Origin: Propionivibrio limicola
GTDB lineage: Bacteria > Pseudomonadota > Gammaproteobacteria > Burkholderiales > Rhodocyclaceae
Length of the DNA stretch: 64,000 nt
Direction: 5' to 3'
Assembly (NCBI RefSeq): GCF_009469695.1
Contig: NZ_SSSR01000001.1
Coordinates: 248,001 to 312,000 of the forward strand
Shown here: one piece after another, positions 31,816 to 37,009 of the stretch
Position numbering within the stretch: position 1 is the first letter of the stretch
Layout of the letters: each line of letters opens with the position of its first letter
The notes under the pieces: generated by a model
Database searches by the model: none
Told to the model about the DNA's origin: nothing
Seen by the model: the letters and a program-made list of their open reading frames with translations, nothing else
Position numbers and translations under genes: made by a program

Positions 31816-32955
31816 ATGTCCAAACGCGACTTTTACGACATTCTCGGCGTCAACCGCGACGCTTCCGACGAAGAAATCAAGAAGGCCTACCGCAAGCTGG
31901 CCATGAAGTATCACCCGGACCGCAATCCGGACAACCCGAAGGCCGAAGAGCACTTCAAGGAAGCCAAGGAAGCCTACGAAATCCTCTCCGACGGGCAGAA
32001 ACGCGCCGCCTACGACCAGTACGGTCACGCCGGCGTCGATCCGCAGGCCGGCATGGGCGGAGGTTTTGGCGGGTTTGGCGGCGGCGCGGGCGGCTTTTCC
32101 GATGCGTTTGGCGGAATTTTCGACGAAATTTTTGGCGGTGGCGGCGGTGCCCGGGGCGGCCGATCCAACGTCTATCGCGGCGCGGATCTGCGCTACAACC
32201 TTGAGATCACGCTCGAACAGGCCGCCTTCGGGACCGAGACGAAGATCCGCATTCCGACCATGGAGGTCTGCGATTCCTGCAAAGGCAGCGGCGCCAAGGC
32301 CGGCACGCAGCCGAAAACCTGCCCGACCTGCCAAGGCAGCGGCCAGGTACGTATCCAGCAGGGCTTCTTCTCGATCCAGCAAGCCTGCCCGAAATGCCAC
32401 GGCACCGGTAAGTTCATCGCCGAACCGTGCGGCAGCTGTCACGGCGCTGGCCGCATCAAACAGCACAAGACGCTGGCGGTCAAAATTCCGGCCGGCGTCG
32501 ACGAGGGCGATCGCATCCGGCTCTCGGGCGAAGGCGAACACGGCATCAACGGGGGCCCCGCCGGCGATCTGTACGTGCAGATTCACCTCAAGGCGCACAG
32601 CGTCTTCGAGCGCGAACAGAACGACCTGCACTGCGAAATGCCGATCAGCTTCGCCACCGCCGCACTGGGCGGCGAGATCGAGATTCCGACGCTCGACGGC
32701 GCCGCCAAGCTCAAGATTCCCGCCGAAACGCAGTCGGGAAAAATCTTCCGCCTGCGCGGCAAGGGCATCAAGGGCGTGCGCAGCCACGCGCCGGGCGACC
32801 TGCTTTGCCACGTCGTCGTCGAAACCCCCGTCAATCTCACCGAGCGCCAGAAAGAACTGCTGCGCGAACTCGAAGATTCCAGCAGCGATTCTGCCCTCCA
32901 CAACCCGCGGGCCAAATCGTGGATGGACAAGGTGAAGGAGTTTTTTGCCGGCTGA
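31816..32955 (+). CDS. dnaJ: Chaperone protein DnaJ
   Basis: Hsp40 co-chaperone that stimulates the DnaK ATPase. 379 residues, type I. The J domain has HPD at 33-35. A Gly/Phe-rich linker follows (about 76-115). Four CxxCxGxG zinc repeats are present: [24 protein letters not shown] and CGSCHGAG. The C-terminal substrate-binding domains are complete. A CCCCATCT sequence 15-20 bp upstream resembles a sigma32 -10, but no good -35 is seen. The dnaK terminator precedes it, so its level may depend on read-through. Confidence 0.97.
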
Positions 32956-33001
32956 GCAAAAGAACGGGGCTTCTCCCCAAAAAAATCTGCAAAATCAAAG
33001 C

Positions 33002-33025
33002 AAAGGCCTCCTCGGAGGCCTTTTT
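33002..33025 (+). terminator. Rho-independent terminator after dnaJ
   Basis: AAAGGCCTCC/GGAGGCCTTT stem with a TC turn, ending in five T residues. Confidence 0.9.
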
Positions 33026-33126
33026 CATTACCCGCTGTTCCCTACCCAGACATCCGCCTCTTCCGAAAGCAATCCCGGAAGCATTTTGTAAAACTGCTTA
33101 AGGTTTTTCTGCCCCGACCGTAAATG

Positions 33127-33155
33127 TTGACAACCTGACTCTGTTTTGTTAGGTT
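33127..33155 (+). promoter_or_regulatory. Possible sigma70 promoter upstream of the riboswitch
   Basis: A perfect -35 TTGACA (33127-33132) with a 17-bp spacer to a weak -10 TAGGTT (33150-33155). Transcription from here would include the riboswitch at 33229-33313. Between the two lies a 9-bp hairpin (33200-33223). Confidence 0.35.
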
Positions 33156-33228
33156 GCGCACGTTGCTTAATTTTTAGGCAACTTGATTCGAAAAAAACCA
33201 GCGTCGGCCGTTGTGCCGATGCTGCTTG

Positions 33229-33313
33229 AAAAGGGCAAACCCGTCGAAAGGCGGGGACGCAAAATCACCGGTCTAAAGGGTTGAGTCACACTCAATGACA
33301 GCGGGATTGCCAG
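33229..33313 (+). ncRNA. Cyclic-di-GMP-I (GEMM) riboswitch aptamer
   Basis: The conserved GEMM-I core is present in order. AAGGGCAAACC comes first, then a stem capped by a GAAA tetraloop (CGTC-GAAA-GGCG). GGGACGCAAA, the CACCGGTCTAAA block, a second hairpin TTGAGT/ACTCAA, and AGCGGGATTGCC follow. This aligns motif by motif with the Vibrio cholerae Vc2 aptamer. The G that pairs with the ligand in Vc2 (second G of AGGGC) is kept, pointing to c-di-GMP rather than the cGAMP-type variant. The nearest downstream gene on the strand is the subtilase at 33734, about 420 nt away. Confidence 0.85.
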
Positions 33314-33680
33314 GCAGTGTTACCGCTCCTTCCCTTGTGGAAAGAGCACTATTTGCTGCATGCGATTTCGCGCTCATCCCCCGCGGCCATTGAACGACGG
33401 GCAGACAGATGAACGGATCGCAAGGTAACACCACCCACTCCCCCACGCCTCCAGCAGCAACGCAAGCCATTTGGCACGAACCTGTCCGGCGCCCGCCGTC
33501 ACAACGGCGGCTGAAAATCAATTCGTCGCCCCTTGGCGACAACGCAAGCGACTGATTTTTGGTCAGTTTTCAGAAACAGACACCAACCGAGTCGCTTTCC
33601 CCCGACAACCACGCGCGGGAATTCCGCCTGAAATTTTAGAAATTAGCCTAACCAATTGTTACATATAGGAATTTTATATT
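33314..33680 (+). other. Long non-coding stretch between the riboswitch and the subtilase promoter
   Basis: No convincing gene. It holds two segments with perfect 8-base complementarity, GTGTTACC (33317-33324) and GGTAACAC (33424-33431). It also holds a CCGCCGT/ACGGCGG hairpin near 33490 and a short ACTGA/TCAGT hairpin before a T-run near 33555. These may form the riboswitch expression platform or a processed leader. A 47-codon frame from ATG 33409 lacks a ribosome-binding site. Confidence 0.4.
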
Positions 33681-33696
33681 TGGCATTGGTTTTGCT
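33681..33696 (+). promoter_or_regulatory. Sigma54-type promoter of the subtilase gene
   Basis: TGGCATTGGTTTTGCT has the -24 GG (33682-33683) and -12 GC (33694-33695) exactly 10 bp apart, close to the consensus TGGCAC-N5-TTGCW. The predicted start of transcription would leave a leader of about 27 nt, with an AAGGAAG ribosome-binding site before the ATG at 33734. Confidence 0.7.
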
Positions 33697-33733
33697 TTTG
33701 GCAGCAAAACTTTATCGCAAAGGAAGATGATCC

Positions 33734-35539
33734 ATGTTTGACAAATCCAGCCCCTCCGCCAATTCCTCAGTATCGACCGCGTCCGTTCTTGATGCTTCCC
33801 GCCGACACATCCCTGCGGCGCTGGCTTTGACTTTCATGCTGGGCGCAGGCGCGATCCCGGCGGCAGCGCAAACAACCGCACCAACAGAAAAATGGGTTCC
33901 CGGCCGCCTGCTGGTACAGCCACGCGCCGGCCTCTCGGATGCCGAGTTCGACAAGATCCTAAAGCCGCACGGCGGCAAGCAGGTTGGAAAGATCGACAAG
34001 ATCAATGTGCGCATCGTGCAATTGCCGGCGAACGCTTCGGAGAAAGCTATCGCTGCTCTCCTCAAACATAACAAACACATCAAGTTCGCCGAGCGCGACA
34101 TGCTCGTCAAGGCCGAGGGCACGGCAAACGACCCCTATTTCGGCAGCGCGTGGCATCTCCCGAAAATCAACGCCCCAGTAGCGTGGGACAGCAGCCAAGG
34201 TTCAAACGTCACGATTGCGATCCTTGATTCCGGGGTCGACCCATCACACCCCGACTTGGCAGGAAAACTCGTGGCCGGCTGGAATTTCTTTGACAACAAT
34301 TCCAACACGTCCGACGTGTACGGGCACGGCACCAAGGTCGCCGGCGCCGCAGCGGCAGCGACGAACAACTCTACTGGCGTCGCCGCAGTTGCCACCGGCG
34401 CGTCGATCATGCCGGTTCGAGTTGCCGGAACAGACGGTTATGGCTCATGGAGCGCGATTGCGAGTGGTCTGACATGGGCCGCTGATCACGGCGCCCGCGT
34501 CGCCAACCTGAGCTTTTACGGAGTAGAGACAAGTTCCTCTGCCGTAAGCGCTGCGCAATACATGAAGAGCAAGGGCGGGCTCGTAGTGACGTCTGCTGGC
34601 AACTACGGGACCGAGGCGACAATTGCCCCGAGCGACTCGATGATCACCGTATCGGCCACCGATACGGCAGATGTCAAGACAAGTTGGTCCAGCTATGGAA
34701 GCTTCGTTGACGTGGCCGCCCCCGGCGCCGGCATCTGGAGTACCGTCAATGGCGGCAGCTATGCCGCCGTTTCCGGAACCTCGTTCGCCAGCCCGGTCAC
34801 TGCCGGTGTAGTGGCCCTGATGATGGCCGCCAATCCAGGTCTCGCTGCCGCCGAAGTTCAGAAGCGGCTGTATGCCAGCGCGCTTGATCTGGGCACGTCC
34901 GGCTTCGACAAATACTACGGCAACGGGCGCGTCGATGCCGCCGCAGCGGTCCAGGCCGCCAAGGTCGCCGCGTCGGTGGACAGTACTGCGCCGAGCGTCA
35001 GCATCGGATCACCGACGGCCGGCAGCACGGTGAAAGGACTCGTGGCCGTCGATGTCAGCGCAAGCGACAACGTCGGCGTAAGCCGTGTCGATCTATTGGT
35101 AAATGGAACCAAGATTGCCAGCGACACGACCGCACCGTTCGGCTTTAGCTGGGACAGCACGAAGGCAACCGATGGCAGTGCGACGCTTGCAGCCTATGCG
35201 TACGATGCCGCCGGCAACTCCGCATCGCGCAACGTGACGGTCACGGTCGCCAATGCAACTGCTGCGGACAGCCAGGCACCGGTCGCCACGATCAGCAATC
35301 CAGTTGATGGAAGCACAGTAGCCGGCGTCGTGGCCGTCAAGGCAACCGGCACGGACAATGTCGCGGTAACAAGCGTGCGTCTGTTAATTGACGGAAAACA
35401 GGTTGCATCCACCACAGGAACGAGCGTCTCTTACAACTGGAACACGAAGAAAGTCAAAGCAGGGACGCATACCATCGTGGCCGAAGCAGCCGATGCAGCG
35501 GGCAATAAAACGACCAAGAGCATTCAAGTCGTCCGCTGA
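33734..35539 (+). CDS. Secreted S8 serine peptidase (subtilase) with Ig-like C-terminus
   Basis: 601 residues. A signal peptide with an extended N-region is predicted (hydrophobic 28-43, cleavage near AAA-QTT, 45-47). A propeptide-like domain of the fervidolysin type follows (54-125). The peptidase domain has the full triad and oxyanion Asn: Asp165 (AILDSGVDPSHPDL), His198 (YGHGTKVAGA), Asn290 (TSAGNYG) and Ser350 (SGTSFASPV). Two Ig-like repeats make up the C-terminus (about 415-510 and 512-601), each with a DSxAPxxxIxxPxxGSTV opening. There is no PEP-CTERM sequence or other anchor. It has a sigma54-type promoter and lies downstream of a c-di-GMP riboswitch, suggesting regulated release of surface or biofilm material; targets are unknown. 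Confidence 0.9.
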   Translation: MFDKSSPSANSSVSTASVLDASRRHIPAALALTFMLGAGAIPAAAQTTAPTEKWVPGRLLVQPRAGLSDAEFDKILKPHGGKQVGKIDKINVRIVQLPANASEKAIAALLKHNKHIKFAERDMLVKAEGTANDPYFGSAWHLPKINAPVAWDSSQGSNVTIAILDSGVDPSHPDLAGKLVAGWNFFDNNSNTSDVYGHGTKVAGAAAAATNNSTGVAAVATGASIMPVRVAGTDGYGSWSAIASGLTWAADHGARVANLSFYGVETSSSAVSAAQYMKSKGGLVVTSAGNYGTEATIAPSDSMITVSATDTADVKTSWSSYGSFVDVAAPGAGIWSTVNGGSYAAVSGTSFASPVTAGVVALMMAANPGLAAAEVQKRLYASALDLGTSGFDKYYGNGRVDAAAAVQAAKVAASVDSTAPSVSIGSPTAGSTVKGLVAVDVSASDNVGVSRVDLLVNGTKIASDTTAPFGFSWDSTKATDGSATLAAYAYDAAGNSASRNVTVTVANATAADSQAPVATISNPVDGSTVAGVVAVKATGTDNVAVTSVRLLIDGKQVASTTGTSVSYNWNTKKVKAGTHTIVAEAADAAGNKTTKSIQVVR

Positions 35540-35584: not shown

Positions 35585-35617
35585 AAAAAAACCGCCGCAT
35601 TTCGCGGCGGTTTTTTT
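35585..35617. terminator. Bidirectional terminator between the subtilase and PEP-CTERM genes
   Basis: ACCGCCGC/GCGGCGGT stem with loop ATTTC, with an A-run on one side and seven T on the other, so it can act on both converging genes. Confidence 0.9.
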
Positions 35618-35632
35618 GAATCCGGATCAGCC

Positions 35633-36280
35633 TTATACCCGGCGACGGATCCCAAACATCCCGAGCAATCCAAGTCCCAGCAATGCCAGGGAGGCAGGTT
35701 CAGGAATTTCTTGCGGTGGCGGGCCACCATCTTCAACGGTTACGAACAAATCCATATGAGAGATGTCTTTCCGGTTTACACCATCATTACCGTACATCCC
35801 CCACGTGCCACACAGCTCATAAATACCGCAAGCCGGGGACAAAGCTTCATCAACAAGGAAATACACCCACTTCGCATCAGACCCGGTTATCACTCCGTCC
35901 TTAATCGTGATCAGGAAATCGGTATTGGCTAGCGTGTAGCTAGGATCCAGAATATCGATACCCCAATTACCTTCCTTCGTTCCGCCATAGAAGTCGATCT
36001 TGAAGTCTGTTCCAAATGCAAGTGCCGGATTTTGCGCAACATTCTCGTCTTTCGAGACATGGAGATAATCGGCAGTCCCCGGTACAGCAAGATCAACGTT
36101 CGTGCCGTCCGGATTAACACCAATACCCAATCCGCAAGCCGACGCGCCATTCAGATAAGCATCGGGATTGGTTTCAGCAAGATTACAAACAAGAGCACTC
36201 GCCGCCCCGCTACTCAACAAACCAACTGCGGCAAACAGCGCTCCAACCGTGCAAGTCATCTTTTTCTGCAGAGTTTTCAT
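35633..36280 (-). CDS. PEP-CTERM sorting-domain protein
   Basis: 215 residues from the ATG at 36280, which has an AAGGAG site. An N-terminal signal peptide (MTCTVGALFAAVGLLSSGAASA) is followed by a beta-rich region of about 150 residues with five cysteines. The C-terminus is a textbook exosortase signal: IPEPASLALLGLGLLGMFGI, then a basic RRRV tail. Such proteins are processed by exosortase EpsH and are usually linked to exopolysaccharide. The central domain is not recognised. No exosortase or EPS genes are in the window. A sigma54-like promoter lies upstream. Confidence 0.9.
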   Translation of the reverse strand: MKTLQKKMTCTVGALFAAVGLLSSGAASALVCNLAETNPDAYLNGASACGLGIGVNPDGTNVDLAVPGTADYLHVSKDENVAQNPALAFGTDFKIDFYGGTKEGNWGIDILDPSYTLANTDFLITIKDGVITGSDAKWVYFLVDEALSPACGIYELCGTWGMYGNDGVNRKDISHMDLFVTVEDGGPPPQEIPEPASLALLGLGLLGMFGIRRRV

Positions 36281-36350
36281 GACAGCTCCTTCCATCTACT
36301 GCTTGAAAGTACTACTGAGGGGCAATGTTTCTTCCGCCCTGCCTTCGTTG

Positions 36351-36562: not shown

Positions 36563-37009
36563 ATGAGCGCAATCAGGAACAGACGAGCCTTTGGCCCGGC
36601 CAACCTCCACCCACACGGCTTCACCCTGCTCGAACTGCTGGTGGTCATGGCCATCATCGGCCTGCTGGCGGGTTATGTTGGCCCGCGTTTCTTCTCCCAG
36701 ATCGGCAAATCCGAGACCAAGGTGGCGCAGGCGCAGATCGATGCTTTCGGCAAGGCGCTCGACCAATACCGGCTCGACGTCGGCCGCTACCCTTCGACCG
36801 ATCAAGGTTTGCAAGCGCTGATGGCCGCGCCCGTGGGCGAGGCGCGCTGGCAGGGGCCGTACCTGAAGAAGGCGGTGCCGGCCGATCCGTGGGGCAAGCC
36901 TTATCAATACCGGCAACCCGGCGAGCACGGGGAATACGACCTCCTCTCGCTCGGTGCCGACGGCCAGCCGGGCGGTAGCGGGCCGGCGGCCGACGTCGGC
37001 AACTGGTAA
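36563..37009 (+). CDS. gspG: Major pseudopilin GspG-like protein
   Basis: 148 residues. A prepilin leader ends at HPHG, followed by FTLLELLVVMAIIGLLAGYV with Glu5. The GspG signature region follows (QIDAFGKALDQYRLDVGRYP, then DQGLQALMAAP, DPWGKPYQYRQPGEHGEYDLLSLGADGQPGG), which in GspG binds calcium. It is the first gene of the nine-gene operon, with a GGGAGA ribosome-binding site. It would form the pseudopilus shaft in the periplasm. The processing peptidase is not encoded nearby. Confidence 0.93.
   Translation: MSAIRNRRAFGPANLHPHGFTLLELLVVMAIIGLLAGYVGPRFFSQIGKSETKVAQAQIDAFGKALDQYRLDVGRYPSTDQGLQALMAAPVGEARWQGPYLKKAVPADPWGKPYQYRQPGEHGEYDLLSLGADGQPGGSGPAADVGNW

Follow-up and report, generated by a model that had tools for sequence, protein, structure and literature searches.

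A conserved c-di-GMP-I riboswitch aptamer ahead of a secreted subtilase family, and a displaced protease start in Propionivibrio limicola

Introduction

The window analysed here is a 64,000-nucleotide stretch of Propionivibrio limicola DNA (NCBI RefSeq assembly GCF_009469695.1, contig NZ_SSSR01000001.1, positions 248,001 to 312,000 of the forward strand), in which a c-di-GMP-I riboswitch aptamer lies between dnaJ and a gene for a secreted S8 peptidase. Secreted proteases can release cells from the matrix, and the locus raises the question of whether the biofilm signal controls an extracellular protease, and of how it could do so over the long distance that separates the aptamer from the gene. 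The retention of such a switch ahead of one subtilase family, in numerous Burkholderiales and in further groups and with separate copies for paralogues, would link the digestion of matrix directly to the biofilm signal, and the displaced start in this genome would be a test case for the parting of a riboswitch from its gene. The reading that we consider most likely, and to which we give about even weight, is that of an ancestral translational OFF switch of a secreted protease that has been partly uncoupled here.

Results and discussion

Identity of the aptamer and of the S8 gene

A cmscan search of the whole window placed a c-di-GMP-I (GEMM-I) aptamer, Rfam family RF01051, at 33224-33314 on the forward strand, with 82.1 bits (E 1.2e-14) against a gathering score of 35 bits and with the model matched over its full length (1-87 of 87). 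Besides this element, the only match above cut-off within the 64 kb was one tRNA. The first-pass annotation had called a GEMM-I aptamer at 33229-33313 by reading alone; the call was borne out by this significant, full-length Rfam match, and its span fell on the same element, of which it missed the first five bases and the last one. Judged by eye, the P1 helix is formed by 33224-33228 with 33311-33315 and is extendable to 33218-33228 with 33311-33321. With Vc2, the type example of RF01051, the window element shares a full covariance-model match, the conserved core and a putative position in a 5' leader, and it matches RF01051 instead of RF03167 (c-di-GMP-I-GGC), a family of the same clan. The aptamer itself is a real, ordinary member of the c-di-GMP-I class.

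The S8 peptidase gene (33734-35539, forward strand) encodes 601 amino acids comprising a prodomain, a subtilase domain and bacterial Ig domains (Pfam: PF00082, 165.6 bits; PF17957, 110.5 bits; PF22148, 41.9 bits). The prodomain is fervidolysin-like, and the signal peptide was judged by eye only. As dnaJ ends at 32955, the 778-bp gap described earlier between dnaJ and the S8 start at 33734 was confirmed. The aptamer lies upstream of the S8 gene on the same strand, its end being 419 nt from the ATG.

Conservation of the aptamer-subtilase pairing

The proposed link between a c-di-GMP-I aptamer and this peptidase gained support from a comparison across genomes, in which an aptamer was found upstream and on the same strand at 33 of 50 loci encoding the S8 peptidase or a homologue, the window included. 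At 28 of these 33 loci the aptamer belongs to RF01051 and at five to RF03167, and it was present at all six other loci whose S8 protein is at least 60% identical to that of the window. The pairing of the aptamer with this subtilase family is conserved, as established here by computation. Two S8 genes can each have an aptamer of their own, both where they are divergent (L123) and where they stand in tandem (G388). Where the distance was measured, 122-366 nt separate the aptamer from the aligned part of the S8 gene; in the window it is 419 nt to the ATG. Among the 17 loci that have no aptamer, L118 and L119 have one ahead of a second S8 copy, L173 offers only 1 base of upstream sequence, and L175 is only 38% identical.

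Each of the 50 loci is a separate gene, and a single genome contributes two, L164 and L176. S8 homologues from named genomes amounted to 45 loci, 19 of which are distant and were omitted from the count; 13 of these 19, all but L150-L155, were scanned for RNA families, none with an aptamer. Four further S8-like loci were scanned, one of which has an aptamer (L094), the remaining weak S8-like matches lying outside the scan, so that an aptamer was seen at 1 of the 17 more distant loci covered. Homologues at E 1e-60 or better were present in 22 of 399 genomes across the order, the own genome included, and within the genus in 2 of 28, namely the window's own and G009. At L114, L157, L163, L170 and L174, RF03167 replaces c-di-GMP-I before the S8 homologue, and the aptamer classes seem to have been exchanged or to be drifting in front of one S8 gene family.

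The association has apparently gone unremarked so far: no statement of it was found in the open-access literature searched, subscription journals being mostly outside this coverage. A known system of similar kind is C. difficile zmpI/PPEP-1, likewise a secreted protease with a class I c-di-GMP switch, by which it is negatively regulated according to PMC6366702. That protein is a metalloprotease governed through a transcription terminator, whereas the window encodes an S8 peptidase for which translational control would be expected from the leaders described below.

A displaced protease start

The window aptamer is unusual in its distance from the gene. In the four nearest S8 homologues, L111, L112 (Thauera sp. 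2A1), L113 and that of G009 (63-68% identity), the start codon follows the aptamer by 92, 92, 92 and 95 nt, respectively, and the first-pass annotation was right to describe some 420 nt as unusually long. The window does have an ATGAAC at 33409, 94 nt past the aptamer and so at the offset seen in the relatives, but the frame opened there differs from that of the S8 ORF and comprises 48 codons, with its stop at 33555. The S8 ORF begins 325 nt beyond this ATG, at 33734. When the first 24 and the first 36 nt of all four relatives' genes were fitted to the window, the best fit was exactly at 33409. An alignment of 33315-33442 with the leader and first codons of G009 scored 13.5, the best of 2000 shuffles reaching -4.5, and the corresponding leader scores for L112 and L113 were reached by none of 2000 shuffles and that for L111 by 6 of 2000. 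The 48-codon ORF (33409-33555, forward strand), which in its first codons agrees with the start of the protease gene in the relatives, is best described as a remnant of the ancestral start region.

The odd distance of 419 nt is accounted for by extra DNA of about 300 bases together with the new start at 33734. The extra DNA, placed by comparison at approximately 33443-33750 (forward strand; both ends uncertain), is absent from the four nearest relatives. It would have entered the protease gene within its first codons or taken the place of some of them, so that the old start, preceded by a poor Shine-Dalgarno sequence, now opens a frame of only 48 codons. The protease would now begin at 33734 with a Shine-Dalgarno sequence of its own, AAGGAAG at 33720-33726 (forward strand), as read from the sequence.

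The earlier suggestion that c-di-GMP controls the protease fared unevenly: the conserved link between aptamer and S8 family speaks for it, but simple control here is not supported, the relative-like start leading only into the short frame. Between the window and G009 the aptamers are identical at 81 of 87 positions and the leaders at 77 of 133 alignment columns, which indicates that the aptamer is still in use or that the change was recent. Conservation alone does not prove control, since a conserved c-di-GMP-I switch is described in PMC11218506 as binding its ligand without changing gene expression.

Leader folding and the direction of the switch

Just 5' of the aptamer, a hairpin (33200-33223, forward strand; 33200-33208 with 33215-33223) was found by eye and in folds, its 3' arm overlapping the possible P1 extension. 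A similar hairpin occupies the same place in G009, and it appears in the folds of the window's genome and in the aptamer-enforced fold of G009. On the 3' side, a possible anti-aptamer helix (33301-33371, forward strand) pairs the aptamer 3' strand at 33301-33310 with 33362-33371 through 10 pairs, 3 of them G-U. The run concerned is the best complement of the aptamer 3' strand at the homologous place in five of five leaders, those of the window and of the four relatives, and in all five it is located just after TCCATGC or its counterpart. Its scores were reached in 500 shuffles by 12 for the window and 25 for G009, and by 48, 55 and 48 for L111, L112 and L113, for which the run alone is weak. 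In the window the helix appears in the free fold with the 5' flank and is absent from the free fold without it.

All four relatives' leaders have a TCCATGC that can pair over 7 base pairs with GCATGGA at the Shine-Dalgarno sequence; these pairs are invariant among the four, L111-L113 being close kin, and so lend no covariation support. The window keeps 5 of the 7, in one case with both partner bases altered; the other 2 are broken. When the enforced structure was switched from aptamer to anti-aptamer, the predicted openness of the Shine-Dalgarno sequence rose in the four relatives from 0.22 to 0.39, 0.22 to 0.41, 0.22 to 0.53 and 0.19 to 0.29, whereas at 33409 in the window it fell from 0.34 to 0.28. 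With c-di-GMP bound, then, the aptamer of the relatives would close and TCCATGC would cover the Shine-Dalgarno sequence (GCATGGAG), turning the gene OFF; without c-di-GMP, the aptamer 3' strand would pair with leader sequence immediately following TCCATGC, which would loosen the cover and turn the gene ON. The OFF direction is suggested by the opening of the Shine-Dalgarno sequence under enforced anti-aptamer pairing in four of four relatives, and it is a working guess because in three of the four the free fold is favoured over the anti-aptamer fold by 8-13 kcal/mol (in one the two are equal) and because, with 40 nt of 5' flank, free and aptamer-enforced folds differ in L111 alone. An OFF switch would agree with the negative regulation of zmpI/PPEP-1 in C. 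difficile.

In the window, direct translational control of the protease has probably been weakened or lost, and the aptamer, judged by its sequence, should still bind c-di-GMP. A less likely reading, at well under an even chance, is that the riboswitch still controls the protease here via a long leader: a single transcript from the candidate promoter near 33127 would traverse the extra DNA and reach the S8 gene, and c-di-GMP would alter termination, RNA decay or long-range folding. The retention of the aptamer and of the possible anti-aptamer helix agrees with such an arrangement, as does a Bacillus thuringiensis c-di-GMP-I switch with a long expression platform (PMC11218506). There is also a slight difference in the predicted openness of the S8 Shine-Dalgarno sequence between the enforced folds (0.42 versus 0.55 at the start at 33734), and some long-range effect of the aptamer at that start may remain. 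Against this, the forward strand has no terminator-like site from 32900 to 33800, the extra DNA brings its own start signals, and pairing of the aptamer 5' strand with sequence preceding the S8 ATG, which had appeared in a fold, was no better than chance, its score being reached by 211 of 300 shuffles. For pairing of other aptamer parts with the leader, the scores were reached by 8 (P2), 46 (P1 3' strand) and 283 (P3) of 300 shuffles.

The opposite direction, an ON switch in the relatives by which c-di-GMP would raise protease output in biofilms, has in our estimate a lower probability again, about one that a cautious reader would call unlikely. Class I c-di-GMP switches work both ways in different bacteria, and the direction of such a switch is not transferable between species, as PMC6366702 warns; the enforced folds, however, favour an open Shine-Dalgarno sequence in the unbound state in all four relatives, even though that state is energetically costly in three.

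Candidate promoters

A possible sigma-70 promoter of the riboswitch transcript was noticed by eye at 33127-33155 (forward strand; TTGACA, 17 nt, TAGGTT), and a similar arrangement (TTGACA, 17 nt, TAAATT) was likewise seen upstream of the aptamer in G009. The window candidate is weak, and the consensus promoter scan did not list it. Within the extra DNA, a sigma-54-like -24/-12 element, TTGGCATTGGTTTTGCT, is situated at 33680-33696 (forward strand), 37 nt before the S8 start, and agrees with 11 of 13 consensus positions. When the extra DNA was shuffled 2000 times, the score of this element was reached in 10 cases, and four other sites in the window match or beat it, at least one of them within an ORF; the exact form of a stricter sigma-54 pattern occurs 3 times in the genome and the reversed pattern 0 times. 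From these signals we infer that the protease probably has its own promoter in the extra DNA, perhaps of the sigma-54 type.

The element recalls the sigma-54 promoters of the PrsK/PrsR system before PEP-CTERM genes: in each case a -24/-12 element stands ahead of a gene whose product is exported, and PrsR, which activates the sigma-54 promoters of PEP-CTERM genes, is encoded in the window's genome. A TTTACA box has been described 32-92 nt upstream of such promoters (PMC1569441), and by eye none was present at that distance upstream of 33680-33696, nor does the S8 protein match PEP-CTERM; control of this site by PrsR was rejected for want of the box at its usual distance. A mapped RpoN-dependent PEP-CTERM promoter is reported for another bacterium in PMC9850573. 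Elsewhere in the genome, another PEP-CTERM gene, L197 (G000:C14:48035-48103), has an upstream TTTACA with TTGGCACCGAATGTGCT 60 nt on, like the box of PMC1569441.

A more far-reaching form of the uncoupling, which we advance only tentatively, is that capture of a promoter and a start rewired the protease from translational control by c-di-GMP to sigma-54 control. A still-switching aptamer would then be stranded before the 48-codon frame, either acting only on that leader RNA or decaying, and the locus would capture, in nature, a riboswitch on the way to losing the gene it governed.

Origin of the extra DNA

The extra DNA has no second copy anywhere in the window's genome, and among 197 other genomes seven gave only matches of 20-38 nt (E 0.002-0.01), so that neither its own genome nor the others provided a convincing source. 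An origin by tandem duplication was also rejected, the 21-nt direct repeat involved, at 71% identity, being too short to stand out from chance. The genome is a draft of 3.1 Mb in 56 contigs, and this, together with the lack of a convincing match elsewhere, would fit an assembly or binning artefact in which the true leader resembles that of G009. We hold such an artefact to be very improbable: the extra DNA sits inside a 416-kb contig and supplies a good Shine-Dalgarno sequence and an in-frame start for a protease that is itself intact, and drift is seen in the old start region as well.

Genes downstream of the protease

The first-pass annotation had extended possible control by the switch to the export genes behind the protease, and this was not borne out. 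The S8 gene ends at 35539 and is followed by a terminator-like hairpin at 35594-35611 (both strands), one of 3 terminator-like sites in the stretch compared with 1.4 in shuffles, and by a PEP-CTERM protein gene at 35633-36295 on the reverse strand (TIGR02595, over cut-off), convergent with the S8 gene. Only then come gspG (36563-37009) and other genes of type II secretion. Because the terminator and the opposite-strand gene intervene, it is unlikely, as far as the sequence tells, that the type II secretion genes share the aptamer/S8 transcript, and an operon of S8 with them was rejected. The genome has 3 PEP-CTERM genes, including this one.

Ligand preference

The window aptamer carries G at model position 11, which, following the Vc2 structure, we take to be residue G20 of Vc2. 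At this column G was found in 46 of 50 listed aptamers and A in 4; A at residue 20 is the mark of the GEMM-Ib (cGAMP) type, and the window aptamer has G. Residue 20 steers the choice between c-di-GMP and cGAMP, according to PMC6456294 and PMC9262584. From this residue, c-di-GMP is inferred to be the ligand. That the aptamer senses 3',3'-cGAMP instead is most improbable, given its G and the conversion of a cGAMP switch into a c-di-GMP switch by A20G, even though cGAMP-specific GEMM-Ib switches exist in Geobacter (both from PMC6456294).

Aptamers elsewhere in the genome and in relatives

The window's genome contains 2 copies of RF01051, and the same search found it in 0 of 14 control genomes. 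The second copy, L033 (G000:C53:100029-100114, minus strand, 74.9 bits), precedes an HD-domain (HD_5) response regulator, possibly a c-di-GMP phosphodiesterase; if so, the arrangement would form a feedback loop. At least one c-di-GMP-I aptamer was present in 30 of the 59 genomes of the relatives set, among which the window's own is counted. S8-type genes follow just 5 of 50 aptamers in the own genome and this set, and the commonest gene type after an aptamer is a DUF1631 protein family (15 of 50; one member checked by Pfam), as at G002, G006b, G007, G009b, G015, G017a, G021, G022, G023a, G031, G032b, G044, G047, G048a and G055. Two aptamers from the same genus, L056 (G012:C71) and L059 (G017:C94), resemble cGAMP switches in having A at the selectivity position, and the genes behind them encode related proteins that by eye are GGDEF-EAL-like.
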